A stretch of DNA of 33,049 nucleotides, taken from the NCBI GenBank assembly GCA_026706025.1, contig JAPOZO010000067.1, positions 1-33,049 of the forward strand, given 5' to 3'. Shown here in pieces: positions 740 through 23,150 of this stretch. The position numbers and the translations under genes were made by a program. Position 1 is the first letter of the stretch. The number at the start of each line of letters is the position of its first letter. The notes under the pieces were generated by a model that had not been told where the DNA came from, searched no databases, and saw nothing but the letters and a program-made list of their open reading frames with translations. This DNA is from Candidatus Poribacteria bacterium. GTDB taxonomy: Bacteria > Poribacteria > WGA-4E > WGA-3G.

Positions 740-3400
740 CTACTTTACAATGACGAGCCGCCGTGTTTGTTGGAAAACTGGCGTTGTCAACTGATAAAAA
801 TAGATACCACTCGCAACACGTTCCCCAAGCGCATTCCGACCATCCCAATACGCAGCACGATCCCGACTGTTATAGAAGCCTGCGGATTGGAAACCGAGCG
901 AAAGTGTGCGAACCAACCGACCCCTTGTATCGTAAATAGATACTGACACAAGACTGTCTTCGGAAAGTTGATAGGGAATCCACGTCTCAGGGTTAAACGG
1001 ATTCGGGTAGTTCTGCAATAACAGATTCTGTGTGGGTTGACCAATGCTATCAAGGTTGACAGACAAAACGGCGTTTGATAGGTGCTCAGGGGTCACTTTG
1101 ACACTGAGGGTTTGTGATTCAAAGTTTCCATCGGGACCGATGACGCGTACTTCAAGCACGTCTCCAACTTGGACGACGCTCCGTCGCGTCAGATCGGCAG
1201 TTGCAGCAGCGAAGTAATCGCCTTGCACTGGAGCAGTGATCACGCTGTTGGTCCTGAGGTTCCGGACGATGATCTGATACCCGTCAAACGCTGATTTTCC
1301 TTGCAAGTGTCCACTGACAACAAACGCCCATGCTCCGTGTGCCTTGGATATGGCAGGTGCAGCAGCAGCCTCGGTTTGATTTGTCCATTGTGATCCGACG
1401 AAAGCAAAGTTGCGAGTCTGTGGCACATTGACGATATAGCCTTTGCCACCTTCAATTGGAAAACCGTCGTCGGGTGCACTGGGTGTCCACGCGACGAACT
1501 GCTGGTTTGCTGTATCCAGCGTGATGACGGTTGTCGCGCCTGTTATAGCGACCAGGCTCTTGGCAGTCATCGGTGTTGGTGCTGCTAAAGGCAAAGAAAG
1601 CATATTCAACCCTTTAGCCAGCGTGACGTTGAAGACGTTGCCAAATTGATCGCTTACTTCCTGGGTAACGGGTCTTGCGATAAAGCCATGCCTGCGTCCA
1701 TCGGCTGAGTCATAGTGCCCGACGATAGAGCCGTCCTGATTGATATTCCAGCCCTCCGTGCTAACGCTACCCGGATACTGAACTGGATGTAGCCCGTGCT
1801 GGAGTGAACCGACGTGGGTGCGCGGGACATCACCGATCCTCTTGGCTCTGCCAACGAGCGTCCCTACATCGTTGATACCGTGCACAAAAAAGTATTCAAA
1901 TTGTGCTGCGTTTGGAAGATCGAGAGATATAAACTTGCCATTTGCTTGACGCAGGTATGGATGATATAGTCCATCAGCATCTATGTAGCTGCCCACCATA
2001 CGACCGCTCGCATTCACAAAGTCAGCATAAGTTCCCGATGCCTCAGGAGCCTCAACGATTGTATCATCTGAGAAGCCACGGCGCACGCCGGAAGCATCTA
2101 TAAAATTACCGGTCAGTGCGCCGGTTGCGTCACTAATCCCGTATATCTCAGTTTGGACGGAACCGGGAAAATCGTATTGCCGCAATTCGCCATTTTCTAA
2201 GACGACACCATGAAACAGACCGTCGCTGTCTTGGTAGTGACCTGCGGCTTGTCCGTTGTTACCGAGTGCCTAGAAATGCGTTTTCTGTGAGCCGGGGAAA
2301 TCGTAGGTCATAAAAACGCCGTCAATGAGCGTGAAAGCGACTTCTTTTTCACCATCCGCACTCCGTGTGTAACCCGCGTAATCCTCAAAGTCGGAACTCG
2401 CCGTCACCGCTAAAAAGTCTACACTCGGGACATTAATGCTCTCAAAAGTATAGTTGAAGACAGACGGTGTAGCAGCGGGTTCCATATCAGTTTCTGTCGC
2501 GAGTCTGGCGATAAACCCGTGCCTGCGTCCATCGGGTGCGTCATAGTACCCGACAATAGAGCCGTCCTGATTAATATTGTAGCCCTCCGTGCTAACGCTG
2601 CCCGGTACTTCAAATCTCCGTAACCCCTCCTGAAATGTGCCGACAAGTGTTCCTGGGACACTATCCACCCGTTTAGTTCTGGCAACGACAGTTCTTGCAT
2701 CGTTAATACCATGGACAAAAAAGTATTCCAGATCTGCGGCTTGTGGAAGGTCAAGGGATACAAACCTGCCATTCGGGGTACGTATGTATGGATGATATAG
2801 ACCGTCAGCATCTACGTAGCTGCCCACCATACCGCCACTCGAATTCACAAAATCGGCATAAGTCTCCGTTGCGCCAGGTGCCTCAATGATTTCATCCGCT
2901 GAGAATCCACGGCGCACGCCAGAGGCATCTGTAAAATTACCCGTCAGGGCACCCGTGGCATCACTAATCCCATATATCTCGGTTTGGACGGAACCGGGAA
3001 AATCGTATTGGCGGAGCTCGCCGTTTTCCAAAACAATACCGTGAAACAGCCCGTCGCTGTCTTGGTAGTGTCCGGCAGCATTGCCATTATTACCGAGCGC
3101 AAAGAAATACGTGTTCTTTGAATCCGGGAAATCGTATGTCGTAAAAACGCCATCTATAAGTGTAAAGGCGATGTCTTTTTCTCCATCAGCACTTTTCGTG
3201 TAGCCAGCGTAATCCTCAAAGTCGCTACTCGCCGTCACCGCTAAGAACTCTACGTCCGGAACGTCGATCGTCTCGAATGTATAGTTGTCGCTGGCGAATT
3301 CAACAACTTGTGCAGGTGTGTTAATTAGGAAAAAGGAATTGAGGCACAAGAACAACGTGAAAGTGAAAAACAGAAAACTGGTTCTAATCTGAGTGTGCAT
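740..3400 (-). pseudogene. Secreted HAF-repeat protein, copy B, interrupted by one in-frame TAG
   Basis: One 887-codon reading frame starts with ATG at 3400 (ribosome site GAGAGG) and ends with TAG at 740-742. It is broken only by an internal TAG at 2270-2272 (codon 377). Both parts lie in the same frame. At the break, copy D reads YFYALGNNGQ where copy B reads HF-stop-ALGNNGQ, so one codon differs and nothing is missing. Modules in order: signal peptide to about residue 30; six HAF-type repeats; a second six-repeat block in which the stop falls; a domain with KGLNMLSLPLAAPTPMT; and a C-terminal FlgD-Ig or sorting-like module with NYPNPFNPETWIPYQL. The downstream part has no credible start or ribosome site. 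Alternatives are a sequencing error or a truncated 376-residue product. Confidence 0.85.
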
Positions 3401-3580
3401 AACAAAAACCTCTCTTAAAAAAAGTATTTTCTCGAAAAATAAAAATAATATATTAGATACCCCGTCCTGAGGGGTAATGCTTGTTGTTGAAGTCTCGCAG
3501 GTTTGTATTCAGTAACACAATAAAAGCGAGGACTGAAGTATTCTGTGTCCATTTAGAAAGACTATTTCAGAACGGCTTAA

Positions 3581-3609
3581 AGTATGTAATATTATTGAAA
3601 AAAAGGCAA
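3581..3609 (-). promoter_or_regulatory. Sigma70-like promoter of HAF copy B
   Basis: Minus strand -35 TTGCCT (3604-3609), 17-base spacer, -10 CATACT (3581-3586), matching the other copies. The spacer sequence differs from that of copy A (CAATAATATTA in place of AGAAAATGTTA) while both hexamers and the distance are kept. Confidence 0.6.
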
Positions 3610-3677
3610 GGAAAATCTTATCTGTTTTCTTGATTTCTTAGCAAGGGAAGTAATTCGGTGGGTTCGGATTTATACAT

Positions 3678-3840
3678 CTATTATCTATCCCTAATCTATT
3701 ATCTATCCCTAATCGGTAGGTTCGGTTAGGGGATTTAGTCTGGGAATAGACTGGATTTAGTCTGGGGTTAGACTAAATCCGTTCCTTGTATTACATTTCC
3801 ATTCCTTGTATTACATTCCGAACCTACCGGCCCTGGGGAC
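3678..3840. repeat. Nested short-repeat element between copies B and C
   Basis: A compact mosaic of repeats. CTATTATCTATCCCTAAT occurs twice in tandem (3678-3695, 3696-3713). GGTAGGTTCGG (3715-3725) is perfectly complementary to CCGAACCTACC (3818-3828) and brackets the rest. Inside are two copies of GGATTTAGTCT (3731-3741, 3753-3763). The second forms a perfect 11-bp hairpin with AGACTAAATCC (3770-3780). TTCCTTGTATTACATT occurs twice, 20 bases apart (3782-3797, 3802-3817). The outer arms followed by ACCGGCCCTGG resemble repeats near 6844 and 12659. No coding sense is visible. Confidence 0.75.
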
Positions 3841-3869
3841 CCAAGCAGTTATTTTTCTAAAATTGACAC

Positions 3870-6529
3870 CTATTTTACAATGACGAGTCGCCGTGTTTGT
3901 TGGAAGGCGGGGGTCGTCAACTGGTAAAAATAGATGCCACTGGCAACACGTTCCCCAAGCGCATTCCGACCATCCCAATACGCAGCACGACTCCGACTAT
4001 TATAGAAGCCAGCGGCTTGGAAACCGAGCGACAGTGTGCGGACCAACTGACCGGTTGTATCGTAAATGGAGACCGATACCAGACTGTCTTCGGAGAGTTG
4101 ATACGGAATCCACGTCTCAGGGTTAAACGGATTCGGATAGTTCTGCAGCAACAGATTCTGTGTCGGTTGACCGATGCCATCAAGACTGATGGACAAAACG
4201 GCGTTTGCCAAGTTCTCAGGCGTCACTTTGAAACTAAGGGTTTGTGATTCAGCATTCCCCTCCGGACCGATGACGCGTAACTCAATCACATCTCCAACTC
4301 GGACGACGTTCCGCCGCGTCAAATCGGCAGTTGCAGCAGCGAAGTAATCGCCTTGTACTGAGGTGGTTATCGTGCTGTTTGTTCTGAGATTCCGGACGAT
4401 GACTTGGTAGTTTCCGTCAAACGTGGATTTACCTTTCAAATGTCCGCTGACAACGAATGCCCACGCTTCTTGGGCAACCCCGCTGTCCCCCCTTATCAAG
4501 GGGGTAATGGCAGGTGCTGCAGCCGCCTCGGCTGGATTTGTCCAAGGTGCGCCGACGAATGCGAAGTTTCGAGTTTCCGGGACGTTGACGATATAGCCTC
4601 TGCCACCTTCAATAGGAAACCCGTCGTCGGGTGCACTGGGTGTCCAGGCAGTAAACTGTTGGCTTACTGTATCAAGGGTAATGATGGTTGTTGATCCTGT
4701 TATGGCTGCAAGTGACTTGGCAGTCATGGGAACTGGTGATGCCAAAGGCACAGAAATCATGTTTAAACCTTTATCCAACGTGACGGTGTAGGTGTTGCCA
4801 AAATGATCGCCCTCTGCTTTGGGAACGAGTCTGGCGATGAATCCGTGTCTGCGTCCATCTGCTGAGTCATAGTGCCCGACGACAGAGCCGTCCTCATTGA
4901 TATTCCAACCTTCCGTGCTAACAGCACCTGGAAACCGCAATTCTTTTAGATTGAGGGGGCTGCCGACATAGGTGCGCGGGACATCACCCGCCGCTTTCGC
5001 TCGACCAACGACAGTCCTTGCCCTGTTGAGACCGTGCAGAAAAAAGTATTCCAGATTTAGTGCGTTTGGAAGGTCAATGGATAGGAATCTGCCCACCGAA
5101 CTACGCATGTATGCATGATAGACTCCATCAGCATCTCTGTAGCTGCCCACGATATGCTTTGTCCAACTCACAAAATCGGCGTAAGTTTCCGGTGCTCCGG
5201 GAAACTCGACGATTGTCTCCCCTGAAAACCCGCGGCGAACACCAGAGGCATCTACAAAACTACCCGTCAGTGCCCCGTTGAATCACTATACCCATAGATC
5301 TCCGTTTCGACAGAATCAGGGAAATCGTATTGTCGCAACTCGCCATCTTCTAAGATAACCCCGTGAAAAAGACCGTCGCTATCCTTGTAGTGTCCGGCAG
5401 CGATCCCATTATTACCCAGTGCATAGAAATAGGTGCCGTGCGAGCCGGGGAAATCGTGGGTCGCAAAAACGCCATCAATGAGCGTAAAGGCGACATCTTT
5501 TTCACCATCAGGACCCCGCATGTTTCCGGCGTAATCAAAAAAGTCACTACTGGCAGTTACGGCTAAAAAATCTACGCCCGGGACATCAATACTCTCAAAC
5601 GTATAGCTGAGGTCAGGAGGTGGTCGCGGAACAGTCTCCTGTGCGGGTCTTGCGATAAATCCGTGTCTGCGTCCATCCGCTGTGTCGTAGTGTCCGACGA
5701 CAGAACCGTCCTGATTGACATTCCAGCCTTCCGTGCTAACGGCATCCGGAACCTTCAATTCTTGTAGCCTGAGGGGGTTGCCAACAAAGGTGAGCGGGAC
5801 ACCATCCGCCCCTTTCGCTCTGCCGACGGCAACCAGTGCATCGTTGATACCGTGCAGAAAAAAGTATTCCTGATTCGGTATTTCTGGAATATCGAGAGTT
5901 GCGAAACTACCTCCAGGTCCACGCAGGTATGCATGATATGTACCTTCAGCATCTACGTAGCTGCCCACGATATTGCCTAACCCGCTTACAAAATCGGCGT
6001 AAGTTTCCGATGCTCCGGGGAACTCAACGATTGTCTCCCCTGAGAACCCACGACGAATGCCGGACGCATCTGTAAAATTCCCTGTCAGTACCCCGGTTGA
6101 ATCACTATACCCATAGATTTCGGTTTGAACAGAGTTCGGGAAATCATATTGTCGCAACTCACCATTCTTCAAGATGACACCGTGGAAAAGACCGTCGCTA
6201 TCCTCGTAGTGCCCCGCAGCGAGTCCATTATTACCGAGTGCGTAGAAATAGGTGTTTTTCGAGCCGGGGAAATCGTGGGTGGTAAAAACGCCATCAATGA
6301 GGGTAAAGCCGACCATTTTTTCACCATCCGCACTTGGCGTGTTGCCTGCGTAATCCTCAAAGTCGCTACTTGCCGTCACCGCTAAGAAGTCTATACCTGG
6401 AACATCGATCGTCTCAAATGTATAGTTGGAGACCCCTTGTGCAGCGGCGTTCTTTAGGAAAAAGGAATTCAGACATAAAAACAACGTGAACGTGTAAAAC
6501 AAAAAACCTTTCCTGATATGAGTGAACAT
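3870..6529 (-). pseudogene. Secreted HAF-repeat protein, copy C, frameshifted by one base
   Basis: The gene starts with ATG at 6529 and runs open to a stop at 5267. The homology then continues in another frame from about 5280 to TAG at 3870-3872. The span is 2660 bases, exactly one short of the 2661-base copy B. The cause is visible: plus-strand CCCCGTTGAATCAC at 5273-5286 matches CCCCGGTTGAATCAC in the first half of the same gene (near 6091), so one G is missing at 5277. Layout as in copy D: signal peptide MFTHIRKGFLFYTFTLFLCL, two six-repeat HAF blocks, the KGLNMISVPLASPVPMT domain and the NYPNPFNPETWIPYQL end module. The downstream piece has no start of its own. The mutation looks recent because the rest is well conserved; a homopolymer sequencing error is the alternative. 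Confidence 0.85.
4471..4505. repeat. Palindromic insert inside copy C coding sequence
   Basis: The core CCCCCTT-ATC-AAGGGGG (4488-4504) is a perfect 7-bp stem. It sits where copy B has a shorter, unrelated sequence. It adds 24 bases (8 codons) and is read on the minus strand as TPLIRGDSGVAQE, keeping the frame. A near-identical insert lies in copy D. Confidence 0.7.
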
Positions 6530-6694
6530 AACTTAAACCTTTCTTATAGTATTCTCTCAGCAGATAAAAAATAATGGGTTAGATACTACGTCCTGAGGGT
6601 CAATACCTGTATTTGAAGTGTCGCAAGTTCGCGTTCATCAATACGGTAAAACCGAGGACTGTGATTACCTTATGTACATTTAAAAACACTGTAG

Positions 6695-6723
6695 AGTATG
6701 CAACATTTTCGTAAAAAAGGCAA
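6695..6723 (-). promoter_or_regulatory. Sigma70-like promoter of HAF copy C
   Basis: Minus strand -35 TTGCCT (6718-6723), 17-base spacer, -10 CATACT (6695-6700). The T-run after the -35 box is one base shorter than in copies A and B, but an extra base nearby restores 17. This points to selection on spacing. Confidence 0.6.
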
Positions 6724-6846
6724 GGAAAATTTCATCTATTTTCTTGGATTGGATATCTACACGTTGAGGATAAGCAGATTGTCGCTTACAAAAAAGGAGG
6801 GGTTCGGTGGGTTGGGATTTACACGTCTGCTGGCACTAAAAAGGTA

Positions 6847-6867
6847 GGCGCGGTTTGAAACCGCGCC
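6847..6867. repeat. Perfect palindrome GGCGCGGTTT-G-AAACCGCGCC
   Basis: Two 10-base arms around one base, within a GGTAGG...CGCCGG context. It resembles the bracketing repeat at 3715-3840 and the hairpin at 12659-12692. On the minus strand it is followed shortly by TTTTT, so it could also help to end transcription of copy D. Confidence 0.6.
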
Positions 6868-6904
6868 GGATCGTAAACAAAAACTTTTTTAGTCTTAAGA
6901 GGGA

Positions 6905-6937
6905 TATCACAGTTACACCGATAGTACAACTGTAATA
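6905..6937 (-). terminator. Hairpin downstream of HAF copy D
   Basis: Arms TATCACAGTT and AACTGTAATA pair with one mismatch, about 25 bases past the stop codon at 6963. It is clearly related to the perfect terminator hairpin after copy B but has no clean T-tract, so it may be a weakened terminator. Confidence 0.4.
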
Positions 6938-6962
6938 CCTGTCCGTTCTCTACGGATTGATT

Positions 6963-9662
6963 CTACTTTACAATGACAAGTCGCCGTGTCTGCTCGAAAG
7001 CGGGAGTCGTCAACTGGTAAAAATAGACACCACTCGCAACGCGTTCGCCAAGTGCATTGCGTCCGTCCCAATACGCAGCACGCTCGCGGCTATTATAGAA
7101 GCCTGCGGATTGATAACCGAGTGAAAGCGTGCGAACGAGCTCACCGGTTGTATCATAGATGGATACTGATACCGGACTGTCTTGTGCGAGTTGATATGGA
7201 ATCCACGTCTCAGGGTTAAACGGATTCGGGTAGTTCTGCAACAACAGACTCTGCGTCGGTTGACCAATGTCATCAAGCCGGACAGATAACACGGCGTTTG
7301 CTAAGTCCTCAGGAGTCACTTTGACCCTGAGGGTGTGTGATTCAAAGTTTCCATCGGGACCGATGACGCGTAATTCAAGCACATCTCCAACTTGGACAAC
7401 GCTCCGCCGCGTCAAGTCAGCAGTCGCAGCAGCGAAGTAATCGCCTTGCACCGAGGCAGTTATCGTGCTGTTTGTTCTCAGATTCCGGACCATGACTTGG
7501 TAGCCGTCAAATGCGGGTTTGCCTTTCAAGTGTCCGCTGACAACGAATGCCCAGGCTTCTTGGGCAACCCCCCTGTCCCCCCTTATCAAGGGGGTAATGG
7601 TAGGTGCTGCAGCCGCTTGGGTTGGATTTGTCCAAGGTGCGCCGACGAATGCAAAGTTGCGAGTTTCAGGGACGTTGACGATATAGCCTTTTCCGCCTTC
7701 AATTGGGAACCCGTCGTCAGGTGCGCTTGGTGTCCAGGCGATGAACCGCTGGATTGCGGTATCAAGCGTGATGATAGTTGTCGCCCCTGTCATCGCGACA
7801 AGGGACTTGGCAGTCATCGGTGTTGGTGCTGCCAAAGGCACGGACAGCATATTCAAACCTTTAGACAACGTGACGGTGTAGGTGTTGCTAAAATGAGTGC
7901 TCTCTGCCTTGGTAGTGAGTCTGGCGATGAACCCGTGTGTTCGGCCATCCGCTGATTTATAGTTTCCAACGATAGAGCCGTCCTGATTGATATTCCAACC
8001 TTCCGTGCTAACGCTGCCCGGGACCTCCAAGCTTTGTAATCCGTGCTGGAGTGTTCCCACAGCAGAGCGCGGGATATCACCGATCAGTTTGGCTCGCGCC
8101 ACAACATATCCTGCATCGTTAACCCCGGGCACAAAAAAGTATTCAAACAGTGCTGCGTGTGGAAGGTCAAGAGATAGAAACCTGCCATCTGGGTAACGTA
8201 TGTATGGCTTATATACACCTTGGGCATCAATGAAGCTGCCAATGACGGCACCATCCGCGTTCGCAAAATCGGCATAAGTTGCTGATGCCTCGGGATACTC
8301 AATGATTGTGTCCCCTGAGAAGCCGCGGCGCACGCCAGAAGCGTCTATAAAATTACCCGTCAGGGCACCCGTCGCATCACTGATACCGTATATCTCCGTT
8401 TGAACGGCATCCGGGAAATCGTATCGCCGTAACTCGCCATCTTCCAAGATGACACCGTGGTAAAGACCGTTCCTATCCTCGTAGTGTCCGGCAGCTTGTC
8501 CATTGTTGCCAAGCGCATAGAAATAAGTGTTCTTTGAACCTGGGAAATCATGGCGCGTAAAAACGCCATCAATGAGTGTAAAACCGACGATTTTCTCACC
8601 ATCAGCACTCCGGGTGTTCCCTGCGTAATCCTCAAAGTCACTACTTGCGGTCAACTCTAAAAAATCTACGCCGGGGATATCAATAGTTTCAAAAGTATAG
8701 TAGGCGAAGACGGGTGGGACAACGGGTGCATCCTCGATGGGTGCAGCGGTGTCCGTTATGGGTCTTGCGATAAAGCCGTGTCTGCGTCCATCTGCTGTGT
8801 CATAGTGTCCGACGACCGAACCGTCCTGATTGATATTATAGCCTTCCGTGCTAACGCTGCCTGGGAATTTAAGCACTTGTAGTTCCTCCGGGAATAGACC
8901 GACATAAGTGAGTGGAGGTGCATCTACCAGTTTGGCGCGCGCAACGACAACTCTTGCATCGTTGATACCGTGGACAAAAAAGTATTCCTGTTTTGCTCCC
9001 GTTGTAAGTGTAAGAGATACAAAATCACCATCCGCGACGCGCACATAAGCATTGTAGATGCCATCAGCATCTACGTAGCTGCCCACCATACCGCCTTTGG
9101 CGTTCACAAAATCGGCGTAGGTTTCCAATGCGCCAGGGAATTCAACGATTATGTCTCCTGAAAATCCGCGGCGCACGCCAGCAGCGTCTATAAAATTACC
9201 CGTCAGAGCACCCGTTGTATCACTGATACCGTATATCTGCGTTTCGACGGCACCCGGAAAATCGTATTGCCGCAGTTCACCATTTTCCAAAACGACACCG
9301 TGGTAGAGTCCCTCGCTGTCTTGATAGTGCCCGGCAGCGTTGCCATTATTACCGAGCGCAAAGAAATACGTGTTCTGTGAACCCGGGAAATCGTAGGTCG
9401 TAAAAACGCCATCAATGAGTGTAAAGGCGATATCTTTTTCACCATCAGCACTTTTCGTGTAGCCGGCGTAATCCTCAAAATCGCTGCTCGCCGTCACCGC
9501 TAAAAACTCTACACCCGGAACATCAATCGTCTCGAATGTATAGTCGTCGTTAGCGGATGCGGCGTTGTTTTGCGCAGCAGTATCCGTTAGGAAAAAGGAA
9601 TTAAGACACACCAACAACGTGAACGTGTAAAACAAAAAACCGGTTTTAATATGAGTGTGCAT
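6963..9662 (-). CDS. Secreted HAF-repeat protein with C-terminal sorting-like module, copy D (intact)
   Basis: This 899-residue protein is the only complete intact member of the array. Signal peptide: residues 1-31, ending DTAAQ. Residues 41-301 and 321-581 are two homologous blocks. Each has about six repeats of the form G-N-x-x-G-x-x-x-G-x-Y-x-D-x-x-G-x-x-H-G followed by DFPG, which is the HAF repeat style. Residues 592-680 (TYTVTLSKGLNMLSVPL to NFAFVGAPW) form a domain also seen in copies B and C. Residues 690-703 are a palindrome-encoded insert. NYPNPFNPETWIPYQL (810-825) begins the FlgD-Ig or type-A sorting-like end with YWDGRN and SGVYFY. It starts with ATG after GAGAGG and ends with TAG. 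It is probably exported and surface-bound. The ligand is unknown; HAF is a repeat name, not a function. Confidence 0.88.
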   Translation of the reverse strand: MHTHIKTGFLFYTFTLLVCLNSFFLTDTAAQNNAASANDDYTFETIDVPGVEFLAVTASSDFEDYAGYTKSADGEKDIAFTLIDGVFTTYDFPGSQNTYFFALGNNGNAAGHYQDSEGLYHGVVLENGELRQYDFPGAVETQIYGISDTTGALTGNFIDAAGVRRGFSGDIIVEFPGALETYADFVNAKGGMVGSYVDADGIYNAYVRVADGDFVSLTLTTGAKQEYFFVHGINDARVVVARAKLVDAPPLTYVGLFPEELQVLKFPGSVSTEGYNINQDGSVVGHYDTADGRRHGFIARPITDTAAPIEDAPVVPPVFAYYTFETIDIPGVDFLELTASSDFEDYAGNTRSADGEKIVGFTLIDGVFTRHDFPGSKNTYFYALGNNGQAAGHYEDRNGLYHGVILEDGELRRYDFPDAVQTEIYGISDATGALTGNFIDASGVRRGFSGDTIIEYPEASATYADFANADGAVIGSFIDAQGVYKPYIRYPDGRFLSLDLPHAALFEYFFVPGVNDAGYVVARAKLIGDIPRSAVGTLQHGLQSLEVPGSVSTEGWNINQDGSIVGNYKSADGRTHGFIARLTTKAESTHFSNTYTVTLSKGLNMLSVPLAAPTPMTAKSLVAMTGATTIITLDTAIQRFIAWTPSAPDDGFPIEGGKGYIVNVPETRNFAFVGAPWTNPTQAAAAPTITPLIRGDRGVAQEAWAFVVSGHLKGKPAFDGYQVMVRNLRTNSTITASVQGDYFAAATADLTRRSVVQVGDVLELRVIGPDGNFESHTLRVKVTPEDLANAVLSVRLDDIGQPTQSLLLQNYPNPFNPETWIPYQLAQDSPVSVSIYDTTGELVRTLSLGYQSAGFYNSRERAAYWDGRNALGERVASGVYFYQLTTPAFEQTRRLVIVK
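7561..7595. repeat. Palindromic insert inside copy D coding sequence
   Basis: The core CCCCCTT-ATC-AAGGGGG (7578-7594) is read on the minus strand as part of TPLIRGDRGVAQE. It occupies the same site as the insert in copy C, which suggests insertion before copies C and D separated. Copy B lacks it. Confidence 0.7.
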
Positions 9663-18158: not shown

Positions 18159-19508
18159 CTACCGATCTTCTTCAATCCGCGGGCGAAAACTACGTCCTCT
18201 GCTGTCAGTCAAAAGCACATCGGATAATTTGACTGTTATGGGTTTGCCAGCGACGACCTCAAAAGTGACAGTGGCTAGTTTACAATTCACGATACCTGTG
18301 CGTGAAAGCGTGTGCGCGGCGAGTTTCACACGATTTCCAGACACAACGGGTGCAACAAAGACTGCGCCACCCAGTAGATGATCTGTTGTACTGCTGACAT
18401 AGCGGAGAGCCGTAGCATCAAATTTCACGGTTGCTTGATACGCTATTACGCGCCTTTCACCTGAGATGTTAAGGCTAAAAGTTAATTGTTCACCAACTTT
18501 TGCGGATTGGAACGGGGTTGATGAAAAACTGACCAACGTCTGTTTTGCGGGGACGAGCGCCCACAAACCTATCGTACCATCATCGCCAGCACTGGCAAGT
18601 GTGCGTCCATCCGGACTAAAAACGACATATTCAACCAGCGATGTGTGTCCTGTAAAGGTTTTCAAGGGAGCACCGCTTATTGTATCCCACAAGCGAATTG
18701 TTTTATCTGTCTTGCCACCAGCACTTGCGATCATTTTCCCATTCGGGCTGAATGCAACGCTCAGAACATTATGTGTATGCCCTGTGAGTGTTTTCAGGTG
18801 TTTGCCACTGGTCGCGTTCCATAAACGGATAGACCTGTCCCAGCTGCCACTTGCGATTGTCTTTCCATCTGGGCTGAATGCAACACAAGTGACACTTGCT
18901 TTATGCCCTGTGAGTGTTTTCAGGTGTTTGCCATTCGTTGTATTCCATAACCGAATTTGACTATCCTTACCGCTACTTGCGAGAATTTGACTATCCGGAC
19001 TGAACGCCATCCCCCGAATACCGTCCTTGTGTCCTGTGAGTGTTTTTAAAGGTTTACCTGTGGCAGCGTCCCATAGACGGATTGTGGTGTCCCAGCTGCC
19101 ACTTGCGATTGTTTTGCCATCTGGGCTGAATGTAACGTGCCAGACCCTTGCGGTATGTCCTTTGAGGGTTTTCAGTTGCACGCCTGTGGCAGCATCCCAC
19201 AAACGGACGGTATCATCTCCACTACCACTTGCAATCAATTCCCCGTTGGGACTGAAGGAGACGCTATAAATTTTACCTGTATGTCCTGTAAGTGTCCTCG
19301 GTTGGGTGCCTTTGACGAGGTTCCACACCCAAATCATCTTGTCCCACCCGCCACTAACGAGTGTGTTCCCATCTGGACTGAACGCAACGCTCCGTACCCA
19401 AGCCGTGTGCCCGAAAAGGAAGTGTTGGTTTGTAGAATGTTGGCTGAAAGCGCATGGTAGGCACGAGAAGATTGCTACCGCTAAAATGCAAAAAAATGTT
19501 GTTTTCAT
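18159..19508 (-). CDS. Secreted seven-bladed WD40 protein with cohesin-like C-terminus
   Basis: This 449-residue protein has a signal peptide of about 23 residues (ending CAFSQ). Seven WD40 repeats follow from about 34 to 330, each with H-T...VAFSPDG...IASGS...IRLWD. Seven is the number that closes one propeller. From about 335 to 440 comes a cohesin-like beta domain (GEQLTFSLNI, YQATVKFDATALRYVS, KLSDVLLTDSRG). It resembles the larger neighbour at 20253-23150 but stops straight after the cohesin-like module, with no dockerin or sorting-like end. It may therefore be released or may partner another surface protein. No clear ribosome site precedes the ATG at 19506-19508. Confidence 0.85.
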   Translation of the reverse strand: MKTTFFCILAVAIFSCLPCAFSQHSTNQHFLFGHTAWVRSVAFSPDGNTLVSGGWDKMIWVWNLVKGTQPRTLTGHTGKIYSVSFSPNGELIASGSGDDTVRLWDAATGVQLKTLKGHTARVWHVTFSPDGKTIASGSWDTTIRLWDAATGKPLKTLTGHKDGIRGMAFSPDSQILASSGKDSQIRLWNTTNGKHLKTLTGHKASVTCVAFSPDGKTIASGSWDRSIRLWNATSGKHLKTLTGHTHNVLSVAFSPNGKMIASAGGKTDKTIRLWDTISGAPLKTFTGHTSLVEYVVFSPDGRTLASAGDDGTIGLWALVPAKQTLVSFSSTPFQSAKVGEQLTFSLNISGERRVIAYQATVKFDATALRYVSSTTDHLLGGAVFVAPVVSGNRVKLAAHTLSRTGIVNCKLATVTFEVVAGKPITVKLSDVLLTDSRGRSFRPRIEEDR

Positions 19509-20252: not shown

Positions 20253-23150
20253 CTATTTCATAATCACCATTTTCCGAGTTACTGTGAAATCTCCGGTTGT
20301 TAAGGTATAGAAATATACGCCACTTGCAACGGGTTCACCAAGTTCGTTTCTACCATCCCAATATGCCGCATGGCTCCGGTCCTGATAGGTACCCGCAGGT
20401 TGATGTCCGAGTGCTAAAGTGCACACCAGTTTGCCGTGTGCTGCATAGATACGAAGCGTCACGTCCGCGGGTGCTGCCAACTGATACGGTATCCATGTCT
20501 CAGGATTGAAAGGGTTCGGATAGTTTGCGAGAAGTGCCGTCTCTTTCGGCATCAACGCTGCAAGGAGTTGCTGCAGCACTAAAATGCCACGCTGGAAAGC
20601 GGGATCTGATAGTGCAATTTGTTGTGCTTCATGCAGCCATTGTTGGACATCTGCGCTTGTGAGAGCAGCAATTTGAGCGTCATGCCTCCACACTGCTGGT
20701 GCTCCTGCGGTGTTGGTTATTGCCCCTGCCACCAGTGCGAGATCGACAATATTAACAATGCCATCTCCGTTGACATCGGCTAAATTTTCGCCCGTCTGGT
20801 GAAAGTTTGAGGCGACGATGACCAGATCTTGGACGTTCACGACACCGTTGCCGTCCAAGTCGCCTACTGAGAGCAAGGGTTCCGTTATTTGTCCAGTTTT
20901 GACTCGCGCATACGAAATTCTACCAGCACTGTCAGTGAGAAGCACATCAGATAATGTTAGCGTGGAGGCTTTCGGGGCAAGGACCTCAAACGTAATGGTC
21001 GCAAGCGTACCAGAACCGTTGGCTTCTCCACCGAGAGACGTTGCGGCAAGCGTTCCCTTGTTCTCTGCAATGAGAGCAGGGATCACGTACGCGTCCGAGG
21101 GTAGGTAGTCTCCATGGGTGCTTTGAAGAAAACGGAGTGCAGAGGGGTCAAACCGGACGGTTGCCTGATAACCTGCCACGGTGCTTCCGTCTGCAATACT
21201 GAGAGCAAATGTGAGTTGCTCGCCGATAGCGGGTGATTGTACCGGAGATGGCGAAAAACTCACAGTCGCGTACATATTGGTTTGCGGGGTAAAGTTCCAC
21301 AAAAGCACAGTCCCATCTAAACTTGCACTGGCGAGTGTGTTACCATCTGGACTAATCGTAACGCCGAGAACTCCACTTGTATGTCCGCTCAGGGTTTGTA
21401 CATGTGCCCCGGAGATAGTATCCCACAGACGGATGGTGTCATCTAAACTCGCGCTCACGAGGGTGTCGCCATCTGAAGTGTATGCGATGCTAAAGACGTA
21501 ATCTGTGTGTCCAGTTAACGTCTGCTTATGCTCACCGAAAACGGTGTCCCATAGGCGAATGGTGCCATCATCACTTGCACTGGCGAGTGTAGCCCCATCC
21601 GGGCTGAACACAAGGCTTCTGACATAATCCGTATGTCCAGTGAGTGTCTGATGGTGCTGACCGGACGCAACATCCCATAGATAGATAGTCCCGTCCGCCC
21701 TGCCGCTGGCGAGCGTATCCCCATCTGGACTGAAGGTAACACTCAGGATACCCTCAGACTGCCCGATCAGTATCTGCTGGAGTGAACCGGTGGCAGCGTT
21801 CCATAGGCGGATGGTGCTATCGAAACTTGCACTTGCGAGTATAGCCCCATCCGGGCTGAATGCAACACTGCTGACGGCATCTGCATGCCCTGTCAACGTT
21901 TGTTGATGTTCACCGGTGGCAGCGTTCCAAAGACGGATCGTTTCGTCGTCACTTGCACTTGCGAGTGTAGCCCCATCGGGGCTGAACACAGTACTCCCGA
22001 CCCAAGCAGTATGTCCAGTCAGCGTGTGCGTGGATACGCCAGAGTTCGTGTTCCAGAGACGCAGTGTACCGTCCGTGCTACCGCTTGCCAGCACTCCGTC
22101 AGTCGTACTAAATGCGACGCTACTGATATAATTCGTATATCCTGTTAGGGTCTGTCTGTGTCCGCCGAAGACAGCGTCCCAGAATCGGATGGTGCCATCC
22201 GTACTGGCACTCGCAATCGTTCCACCGCTGGTGCTGTATGCGACGCTCAAAACAGCACCCTCATGTCCTACGAGGGTCAAATTATGCTGTCCGGATGCAG
22301 CATTCCACACGCGGATAGTGCCATCACCGCTGCCACTGGCGATTGTGTCTCCATTTGCGCCGAACGCAACACCGAAGACAGCCCCTGTATGCCCAGTTAG
22401 CGGTGCCCGCTGGACCACACCGAAGGTCGTATTCCATAAACGGATAGTGCCATCACCACTGCCACTCGCAAGGTTCCCTCCATTTGGGTTGAAAGCGACA
22501 GTATAGATAGCATCTGTATGGCCTGTTAATGTCCGCTGTTCCTCTCCAGATGCGACATCCCATAAGCGTATAGTGCCGTCCGCGCTGCCACTCGCAACTG
22601 TCGCTCCATTCGTATTGAAAGCGACAGTATAGACAACATCTGTATGGCCTGTTAATGTCCGCTGTTCCTCTCCAGATGCGACATCCCATAAGCGTATAGT
22701 GCCATCGCCACTTCCACTCGCCAATGTAAGGCTATCCGCCCCGAAAGCAGCACTAAAAACGGGTCCTGTATGTCCAGTGAGTGTCCGTTGATGCGCGCCT
22801 GTGGCAGCATCCCACAGACGGATAGTGCCGTCCGTACTACAACTCGCGAGGGTCGCACCGTCCGGGCTGAATGCAACGTCACTGGTACTACTTGTATGCC
22901 CCGTGAGGAGTGCTACTTCCTCATAAGTCTGGGCATTATAGAGCCAAACACCGATAGAACTTGCGACCGCCATGCGCGTGCCGTCTGGCGAATACTGTAA
23001 TTCGTTTATCCTCCCTTTACCGAGACGTGCCTTGGCACCTTCGGGTAAGCTGAATAGGGATGGATCTTGATCTTGGGCAAAGCTGCTGGGTAGATGTGCG
23101 TTTAAAAGGATAAGTAGCGTTAGTAAGATGAAAAATAATATTTTATTCAT
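20253..23150 (-). CDS. Large secreted WD40 protein with cohesin-like, dockerin-like and C-terminal sorting-like modules
   Basis: 965 residues. Signal peptide to about residue 26 (ending SSFAQ). Fourteen WD40 repeats of about 42 residues follow (about 43-635), enough for two seven-bladed propellers; the first is the least typical. A cohesin-like domain (about 640-755) has GEQLTFALSI, YQATVRFDPSALRFL and LSDVLLTDSAG. A dockerin-like pair of calcium loops, DLDGNGVVNVQDL and DVNGDGIVNIVDL, lies at about 764-808. NYPNPFNPETWIPYQL at 876-891 opens the FlgD-Ig or sorting-like end with YWDGRN and SGVYFY. It is probably a surface scaffold. Two adjacent blades share a recent 126-base duplication. A GGAG box lies 14 bases before the ATG, further than usual. 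Confidence 0.88.
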   Translation of the reverse strand: MNKILFFILLTLLILLNAHLPSSFAQDQDPSLFSLPEGAKARLGKGRINELQYSPDGTRMAVASSIGVWLYNAQTYEEVALLTGHTSSTSDVAFSPDGATLASCSTDGTIRLWDAATGAHQRTLTGHTGPVFSAAFGADSLTLASGSGDGTIRLWDVASGEEQRTLTGHTDVVYTVAFNTNGATVASGSADGTIRLWDVASGEEQRTLTGHTDAIYTVAFNPNGGNLASGSGDGTIRLWNTTFGVVQRAPLTGHTGAVFGVAFGANGDTIASGSGDGTIRVWNAASGQHNLTLVGHEGAVLSVAYSTSGGTIASASTDGTIRFWDAVFGGHRQTLTGYTNYISSVAFSTTDGVLASGSTDGTLRLWNTNSGVSTHTLTGHTAWVGSTVFSPDGATLASASDDETIRLWNAATGEHQQTLTGHADAVSSVAFSPDGAILASASFDSTIRLWNAATGSLQQILIGQSEGILSVTFSPDGDTLASGRADGTIYLWDVASGQHHQTLTGHTDYVRSLVFSPDGATLASASDDGTIRLWDTVFGEHKQTLTGHTDYVFSIAYTSDGDTLVSASLDDTIRLWDTISGAHVQTLSGHTSGVLGVTISPDGNTLASASLDGTVLLWNFTPQTNMYATVSFSPSPVQSPAIGEQLTFALSIADGSTVAGYQATVRFDPSALRFLQSTHGDYLPSDAYVIPALIAENKGTLAATSLGGEANGSGTLATITFEVLAPKASTLTLSDVLLTDSAGRISYARVKTGQITEPLLSVGDLDGNGVVNVQDLVIVASNFHQTGENLADVNGDGIVNIVDLALVAGAITNTAGAPAVWRHDAQIAALTSADVQQWLHEAQQIALSDPAFQRGILVLQQLLAALMPKETALLANYPNPFNPETWIPYQLAAPADVTLRIYAAHGKLVCTLALGHQPAGTYQDRSHAAYWDGRNELGEPVASGVYFYTLTTGDFTVTRKMVIMK
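22511..22703 (-). repeat. Recent 126-bp duplication of a WD40 blade
   Basis: A 67-base block at 22511-22577 is identical to 22637-22703, exactly 126 bases (42 codons, one blade) away. The other blades of this gene differ far more at the DNA level, so this is a young internal duplication. Confidence 0.75.

Follow-up and report, generated by a model that had tools for sequence, protein, structure and literature searches.

In cellulosomes, the two ends of known adaptors attach to different partners. In CipA of Clostridium thermocellum many cohesins are present per chain and an X module lies between cohesin and dockerin; the CipA C-terminus seen in PDB entries 3kcp and 4fl4 comprises cohesin, X module and type II dockerin, and CipA is not known to carry a T9SS tail. 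For freshwater Planctomycetes (Nemodlikiaceae), a hypothetical non-cellulosomal network, the 'planctosome', has been described, which consists of a cohesin anchor, an adaptor with dockerin and cohesin, and dockerin-bearing enzymes, i.e., the same three roles that are proposed below (PMC6461901). Its adaptor is listed in the order dockerin, hyaline repeat, cohesin, with a lamin-tail domain anchor and peptidase clients (PMC6461901), whereas in the poribacterial protein presented here the cohesin stands directly before the dockerin, and a T9SS tail is found on 15 of the 20 cohesin-dockerin frames of the genome. The cellulosome-like complex of Ca. Stygibacter (Cloacimonadota) is similar in that its enzymes have C-terminal dockerins and its cohesin protein a conserved C-terminal surface-attachment domain, but it is organised around a single large scaffoldin that bears CBMs and tandem cohesins, and the excerpted text does not mention cohesin-dockerin units (PMC8542988). 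In ANME archaea, non-cellulosomal proteins combine a single dockerin with as many as five cohesins, the implications of which were called unclear; clients there are commonly ABC-transporter binding proteins and, unlike the tailed poribacterial proteins, they are not linked to T9SS in the parts of the article at hand (PMC9012536).

Poribacteria are abundant in WD40 proteins with T9SS-like tails, the function and export route of which were left open in the available portion of Kamke et al. 2014. A literature search, mostly confined to papers outside subscription, found no publication joining Poribacteria with dockerin, with or without cohesin, and neither module appears in the main text of PMC8163846 as far as it was accessible. 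Compared with the known non-cellulosomal cohesin-dockerin systems, the poribacterial set would represent a new variant.

The window, i.e., the entire stretch of 33,049 nucleotides that was analysed, is from Candidatus Poribacteria and contains the following features.

20253..23150, (-): whole protein of 965 aa with signal peptide, WD40 propellers, cohesin, dockerin, linker and T9SS type A tail (open frame from ATG, domain searches)
23073..23150, (-): start resembling a Sec signal peptide, MNKILFFILLTLLILLNAHLPSSFAQ (read from the translation)
21273..23003, (-): WD40 repeats, about residues 50-626 (13 PF00400 stretches)
20877..21272, (-): cohesin module, Pfam core 20934-21239 (profile score, AlphaFold2 model, structural matches)
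20721..20864, (-): dockerin type I module with two calcium-loop repeats (Dockerin_1 profile; solved dockerins matched by profile)
20826..20861, (-): calcium loop 1, DLDGNGVVNVQD (sequence; end Asp invariant in 106/106)
20742..20777, (-): calcium loop 2, DVNGDGIVNIVD (sequence; end Asp invariant in 106/106)
20523..20720, (-): conserved linker joining dockerin to tail (alignment of 15 proteins of the source genome)
20262..20522, (-): T9SS type A sorting domain, LLANYPNPFNPETWIPY... (TIGR04183, 39.0 bits; NCBIfam residues 877-963)
18159..19508, (-): neighbouring WD40 protein with C-terminal cohesin (18204-18506), no dockerin and no detected tail (Pfam and TIGR04183 searches)

We give an even chance to what we consider the likeliest reading, in which the 965-residue protein serves as an adaptor that is anchored at the surface and belongs to a non-cellulosomal cohesin-dockerin network. 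Its modules are recognized by profile searches of the genome, i.e., Cohesin (PF00963) at 39.9 bits (cut-off 24.1, E 2.0e-9) and Dockerin_1 (PF00404) at 31.9 bits (cut-off 22.9, E 1.1e-6), and TIGR04183 scores well above its cut-off of 23 and ends two residues from the end of the chain. The 13 WD40 stretches have an E value of 4.5e-153 in Pfam, and the best 25 of the 68 families matched in the Pfam scan are all propeller or WD40 families. The proposal made from the sequence alone, that cohesin-like and dockerin-like modules share one propeller chain with a sorting-like end, is thus borne out. Judged from repeat count and length, the WD40 region would fit two seven-bladed propellers, and the linker between dockerin and tail is probably helical. 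A signal-peptide-like start was found by a rule-of-thumb scan in 14 of the 15 source-genome frames that combine cohesin, dockerin and tail.

The cohesin-dockerin unit was modeled with AlphaFold2 at pLDDT 92.4 and pTM 0.77, and solved cohesins match the cohesin part of the model at Z 12.4-17.4 in structural alignments, in which entries no more than 1 Z apart are regarded as tied. The best match is 2xdh (E 1.4e-10; Z 17.4, rmsd 2.5, 127 aligned residues), a non-cellulosomal cohesin from Archaeoglobus fulgidus that is archaeal and only 15% identical; the window cohesin is accordingly modeled with the cohesin β-sandwich fold. The structural alignments mainly span residues 1-142, where the cohesin lies, so that the dockerin is assigned on the strength of sequence profiles, and the dockerin profile also gives weak calmodulin matches (about 1e-4), as EF-hand proteins do. 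CipA shares with the model the presence of cohesin and dockerin in one chain, and 187 of 191 model residues align, but the overall arrangement is unlike that of the model, with rmsd values of 15.1 (3kcp) and 15.6 (4fl4).

The sequence-only reading was to be abandoned if the modules lacked the cohesin-dockerin interface or the calcium loops did not bind calcium; at the level of sequence, the usual ligands are intact in DLDGNGVVNVQD and DVNGDGIVNIVD, and the loop-end aspartates D138, D149, D166 and D177 are invariant in all 106 aligned sequences, that of the window included (16 of 122 cohesin-dockerin pairs having been removed at 85% identity). At helix-facing positions, picked on the basis of known dockerin structures, the two dockerin repeats are more alike within a molecule (0.641) than between molecules (0.492; 0 of 1000 permutations) for 62 of the 75 dockerins of the genome, the other 13 being left out where the pattern did not give two loops. 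Such likeness is expected for a two-fold symmetric binding surface, which the dockerin would then possess. The cohesin side is less favorable: with the exception of G34 and Q36, the exposed positions inspected in the 106-sequence alignment are variable, which counts against the adaptor reading.

Cohesin and dockerin are tightly associated in the genome. For 20 of the 25 cohesins a dockerin is directly next in the same frame, and two more reach one through a second cohesin (22/25); as random placement would yield 0.03 of 25, the order is not due to chance, and the cohesin comes first in all 20 frames containing both. Six further genomes gave 72 cohesin matches, a few of which are fragments of a single domain (70 Pfam hits in the same genomes); 55 have a dockerin immediately after them, 7 have a second cohesin in between, and the other 10 comprise 6 copies of a conserved cohesin-only protein and 4 others. 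These counts and those of the source genome are used in place of a set of 80 loci (47/57), which is biased because the query already contained both modules. Measured between lineage-profile ends, the gap between cohesin and dockerin is 19-26 residues in 102 of 116 unique pairs (mode 22; outliers from -80 to 135), these pairs superseding an earlier set of 126 that contained duplicates, though Pfam ends in the source genome give 8 to 44.

This fairly constant spacing would also suit a purely structural spacer, in which the cohesin fold would be no more than an Ig-like stalk and the dockerin would form a calcium-stiffened joint ahead of the tail, neither of them binding a partner. The fairly defined arrangement in the model of the single unit (pTM 0.77) and the evolution of cohesin, dockerin and linker as a single cassette point the same way. 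Evolutionary distances correlate between cohesin and dockerin (r 0.625) and also between cohesin and the non-adjacent linker (0.703), after removal of 7 of 101 units as duplicates; as the correlation with the linker is no lower, it reflects co-inheritance and is no proof of contact, and co-evolution was rejected as evidence for pairing. Against a spacer stand the retained calcium ligands and internal two-fold symmetry of the dockerin, and the conserved cohesin-only protein, which carries its lone cohesin straight after the signal peptide. Taken with the dockerin-only frames described below, these observations make a spacer role unlikely, although it is the strongest of the competing explanations.

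The short and rather constant linker, together with the partly defined relative orientation in the unit model, would similarly be compatible with an intramolecular clasp, in which the dockerin folds onto the cohesin of the same chain and is set free by calcium, export or a client. This we consider very improbable, given that distances correlate beyond the cohesin-dockerin pair as well and that AlphaFold2 predicted no confident fixed arrangement, and hence no confident docking, for a natural cohesin-cohesin-dockerin chain (pTM 0.50, a weak test from a single-chain run). The latter result counts against the adaptor reading, too.

Earlier, head-to-tail linking of the propeller proteins had been suggested, each copy's dockerin binding the cohesin of the next copy. 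The two modules do share one chain with a short linker between them, and the lack of confident self-docking in the cohesin-cohesin-dockerin relative suggests that the dockerin may be free. By Pfam profiles, the genome has 75 dockerins versus 25 cohesins, so that many other dockerins would compete; a tail on every copy would tether it to the membrane and so curb the growth of chains, and known adaptors take different partners at their two ends. Propeller chains of this kind are therefore improbable. Their proposed cap, the neighbour at 18159..19508, is itself doubtful, though not rejected in view of the good score of the rest of its cohesin. It does bear a cohesin-like module (29.6 bits in Pfam; 111.0 bits with a lineage profile that had included this very sequence) and has no dockerin match, as had been stated. 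The cohesin retains 9 of the 12 best-conserved positions, but the other three, all of them glycines, are altered (G34 to A, G86 to V, G88 to C), and no tail is detected. The frame stops 25 bases from the next one, and no remnants of a dockerin or tail were found near it among the Dockerin_1 and TIGR04183 matches of the window. The conserved cohesin-only protein is a better candidate: it is present in 7 of 7 genomes, with a tail seen in 6, the copy of the source genome being truncated by the contig end.

The imbalance between the modules extends across the phylum. Cohesins are found in 77 and dockerins in all 78 of the genomes sampled, which together hold 962 matches to cohesin and no fewer than 2953 to dockerin, and dockerins outnumber cohesins in 71 of the 78, dockerin counts being lower bounds because no more than 71 candidates were scored per genome. 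The two counts correlate over the 78 genomes (Spearman 0.44) and more so in 36 genomes of the same genus (0.67, falling to 0.38 once genome size is removed), which lends only mild support to pairing. In the source genome, frames have at most two Pfam cohesin hits each, and one and the same genome holds cohesin-only, cohesin-plus-dockerin and dockerin-only proteins, to which anchor, adaptor and client roles, respectively, may be assigned.

Candidate clients are numerous. In the source genome, 34 dockerin frames have neither a cohesin nor a detected tail, i.e., no TIGR04183 match, which weaker tails would escape, and 28 of the 74 tail matches in the genome fell outside the stretches compared with frames. 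The dockerin lies within 10 aa of the C-terminus in 30 of the 34, where a spacer ahead of a tail would be pointless (among the 34, 4 frames match only half a dockerin), and 28 of 33 appear Sec-exported, one frame being too short. Among the 20 of these proteins that were scanned, GHL15 ('hypothetical glycosyl hydrolase') was matched in 7, 6 of them above cut-off, and DUF6259 in 3, 2 of them above cut-off; no cellulase-named family is among the matches listed for these 20. With 75 dockerins to 25 cohesins and 34 such solo frames, docking of other clients is favored over pure self-chaining. Another 21 dockerins without cohesin precede a tail, which suits a spacer equally well and thus counts against the adaptor reading.

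According to the adaptor reading, Sec would deliver the protein to the periplasm, where the type IX secretion system would read the C-terminal tail, so that the protein crosses the outer membrane and is fixed on the surface with its WD40 propellers pointing outwards as a binding or display part. The cohesin would act as a receptor for dockerin-bearing clients, chiefly the Sec-exported, dockerin-ended, tail-less proteins, and the dockerin, held by the short linker, would plug into another cohesin, for instance in the conserved cohesin-only protein or in a further adaptor. Binding, partners, surface location and propeller ligands are all putative in this scheme. Homologues of the export machinery are indicated by sequence: SprA-like, PorU-like and PorV-family genes are present in 7 of 7 genomes, the PorV family above cut-off in all of them. 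The SprA-like (162 bits, cut-off 200) and PorU-like (401.7 bits, cut-off 420) proteins score below the curated cut-offs, and in 14 control genomes the PorU model matches 2, below cut-off, and the PorV model 1, both of which would weigh against the adaptor reading.

That reading also demands some exit route from the periplasm for tail-less clients, which counts against it. A route that we regard as having a low probability is hitch-hiking, whereby dockerin-ended, Sec-exported enzymes would dock, while in the periplasm, onto the cohesin of a partner that has a tail, and the two would cross the wide type IX translocon together as a folded pair. Other proteins of the source genome bear a T9SS tail at the place where dockerin-only enzymes bear the dockerin. 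If hitch-hiking were true, a single cohesin protein with a tail would serve for the export and anchoring of many clients, each interchangeable with the others, and the same logic would suit Cloacimonadota, where, in the excerpted account, enzymes have C-terminal dockerins and the scaffoldin a C-terminal attachment domain (PMC8542988).

The presence of the set in nearly all genomes sampled, and of T9SS-like genes in 7 of 7, provides a concrete, testable answer to the question raised by Kamke et al. 2014, and the large number of cohesin and dockerin matches constitutes a reservoir for specificity studies. For a widespread uncultivated sponge symbiont we thus propose a plug-and-socket surface, on which Poribacteria may join proteins in a manner resembling that of cellulose-degrading bacteria.

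The protein encoded at 20253-23150 of the window carries a cohesin, a dockerin, WD40 repeats and a sorting tail in one chain, as the sequence-only reading had proposed, and this composition is confirmed by profile searches in which cohesin, dockerin and T9SS tail all score above the curated cut-offs.

Modules of the window protein, in order from the N-terminus
Whole protein: 20253-23150, minus strand, open reading frame of 965 aa
N-terminus: minus strand, signal-peptide-like segment of reading frame 20253-23150
WD40 repeats: minus strand, after the signal-peptide-like segment, 13 Pfam stretches
Cohesin: minus strand, downstream of the WD40 repeats, 39.9 bits (profile search)
Dockerin: minus strand, behind the cohesin, 31.9 bits (profile search)
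Linker: minus strand, between dockerin and tail, about 65 residues, conserved (alignment)
T9SS type A tail: minus strand, C-terminal end, 39.0 bits (profile search)

Three further T9SS tails, at 749-1009, 3879-4139 and 6972-7232 (all minus strand; profile search), belong to other window proteins.

The architecture of the window protein is a recurring one. Among the best 80 of 572 relatives, 79 loci are titled Poribacteria and one Rhodothermaceae, the top relative sharing 79% identity. The source genome (6.27 Mb assembly, 103 contigs) holds 75 dockerins, 25 cohesins and 74 tails according to profile searches, and 20 of its 25 cohesins are followed directly by a dockerin, against 0.03 expected under random placement, with two more reaching one via a second cohesin. 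Counted by frame, a dockerin is present in 20 of 23 cohesin frames, 15 of which also have a tail; the three lacking a dockerin are the neighbour at 18159-19508, one frame of contig C32 and, on contig C74, a cohesin-only protein. At the C32 locus (stretch L062, G000:C32:18000-24000, ~2849-3858) the cohesin frame stops and dockerin-like sequence and a tail run on in another frame, which marks either a disrupted member or a fault in the assembly. In six additional Poribacteria genomes, what follows the 72 cohesin matches is a dockerin (55), a second cohesin (7), a tail (2) or nothing (8), and across 78 genomes drawn from the phylum cohesins occur in 77 and dockerins in all, with medians per genome of 11 cohesins and at least 35 dockerins. 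One stretch of genome G002 (L177, G002:C2:1413500-1427500) contains a cluster of three cohesin-dockerin frames that extend 364 to 639 residues past the cohesin, with no tail detected.

The window cohesin-dockerin unit, modelled from an alignment of 106 sequences, is predicted with a mean pLDDT of 92.4 and a pTM of 0.77. Its cohesin part resembles solved cohesins. The best match is a non-cellulosomal A. fulgidus cohesin, at E 1.4e-10 and, in structural comparison, with Z 17.4 and an rmsd of 2.5 across 127 residues. By sequence profile, type II cohesins and the dockerin of Bacteroides cellulosolvens come closest among solved structures. The gap between the modules measures 8 to 44 residues between Pfam ends in the source genome; by a lineage profile it is rather constant, 19-26 residues in 102 of 116 unique pairs (mode 22, outliers -80 to 135), and the two modules therefore look like one semi-rigid unit in most copies. 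In a natural cohesin-cohesin-dockerin relative (pLDDT 89.4, pTM 0.50) the modules are modelled well and their mutual positions are not fixed; because no self-docking is predicted with confidence in this model, the dockerin might be free to bind another chain.

The aspartates at the loop ends (138, 149, 166 and 177) are invariant in all 106 aligned sequences. On the cohesin, G34 (100/106) and Q36 (94/106) of strand 3 are almost fixed, and the remaining exposed positions examined in the alignment are variable. In the 62 of 75 source-genome dockerins usable for comparison, the two halves are more alike at helix-facing positions within a molecule than across molecules (0.641 versus 0.492; 0 of 1000 permutations), the pattern that retention of a binding surface with two-fold symmetry would give; recent internal duplication could also produce this likeness. 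Over 94 cohesin-dockerin-tail units, cohesin distances correlate with those of dockerin (r 0.625) and linker (0.703), and tail distances scarcely correlate with cohesin or dockerin (0.122 and 0.132), so that cohesin, dockerin and linker form one cassette whose history is distinct from that of the tail; the independent variation of the tail behind the cassette suggests tail swapping or homogenisation. The main rival to a binding function, namely that cohesin and dockerin serve as a non-binding spacer, we consider unlikely.

We put the chances at about even that the window protein is an adaptor in a cohesin-dockerin network, in which the propellers would form an outward binding module, the cohesin a socket, the dockerin a plug and the tail an anchor. 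Pure head-to-tail chaining of its copies, as first envisaged from the sequence, is improbable, fitting poorly with a tail on every copy and with the surplus of other dockerins. That surplus includes 34 source-genome dockerin frames with neither cohesin nor detected tail (4 are half-dockerin matches), in which the dockerin is the last element in 30 of 34 and a rule-of-thumb scan finds a Sec-export-like start in 28 of 33. A domain scan covering 20 of the 34, with some proteins counted in several classes, found GHL15 in seven (six above cut-off), DUF6259, which we take to be glycosidase-like, in three (two above cut-off), leucine-rich repeats in four, WD40 in three, and FG-GAP, a copper monooxygenase domain and a bacterial Ig-like domain in one each; in three the dockerin was the sole domain found. 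These frames are possible partners for the window cohesin.

The neighbour, proposed earlier as a chain cap, does have a cohesin and, by profile searches, neither dockerin nor tail; a capping role is doubtful, since three otherwise conserved glycines are changed, though the remaining cohesin scores well, and no tail is detected. The strongest cohesin-only candidate, ahead of the neighbour, is a conserved protein present in 7 of 7 Poribacteria genomes (L210-L216). Behind its signal peptide it has a cohesin, then acidic low-complexity linkers that differ greatly in length (in L210, 272 consecutive residues are D, T or A), in most copies a Spondin_N-like region, a further conserved domain and a tail. 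The source-genome copy is cut by the contig end, so that its tail is not seen. The G005 copy lacks the Spondin_N-like part, and among five copies scanned only L210 and L061 reach the Spondin_N Pfam cut-off; a second cohesin-only protein in G005 (L217) has WD40 repeats and a tail. Spondin_N-like regions occur in 53 of 78 Poribacteria genomes, and at 30 loci inspected a cohesin lies upstream in 21, with no dockerin nearby in the stretches covered.

As to the export route, Kamke et al. 2014 noted the tails in Poribacteria single-cell genomes and reported that Por secretion genes were not seen. Candidate components were located in the source genome as follows.

Candidate T9SS genes of the source genome (profile searches)
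L264 (G000:C63:136000-144500), 1049-7702, minus strand: SprA-like giant protein
L265 (G000:C63:92500-101500): adjacent PorU-like and PorV-family gene pair

SprA-like frames of 2162-2309 aa, matched in several collinear pieces, occur in 7 of 7 Poribacteria genomes and 0 of 14 control genomes, the source-genome whole protein scoring 162 bits, below the cut-off of 200. PorU-like C25 proteases are likewise found in 7 of 7 (401.7 bits in the source genome, below the cut-off of 420; weak matches in 2 of 14 controls), as are PorV-family proteins above cut-off (one below-cut-off match among the 14 controls), and a PorV-family match directly adjoins the PorU-like match in all seven, that in G002 being below cut-off at 71.8 bits. 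Together these genes and the PorU-PorV adjacency support, and do not prove, a functioning T9SS in Poribacteria.

Non-cellulosomal cohesin-dockerin systems are already known: the excerpts of the respective papers describe them in archaea (PMC9012536), as a hypothetical 'planctosome' of anchor, adaptor and clients in Planctomycetes (PMC6461901), and with a surface-attached scaffoldin in Cloacimonadota (PMC8542988). Compared with the three systems as these excerpts present them, the poribacterial form differs in cassette number (20 frames of one genome), in that the cassette is coupled to modules such as WD40 and LRR together with a T9SS tail, and in its spread through nearly all genomes sampled from one phylum. 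Given these differences, and since no paper naming both Poribacteria and dockerin was found within the limited literature collection searched, the poribacterial set is a new variant of known systems.
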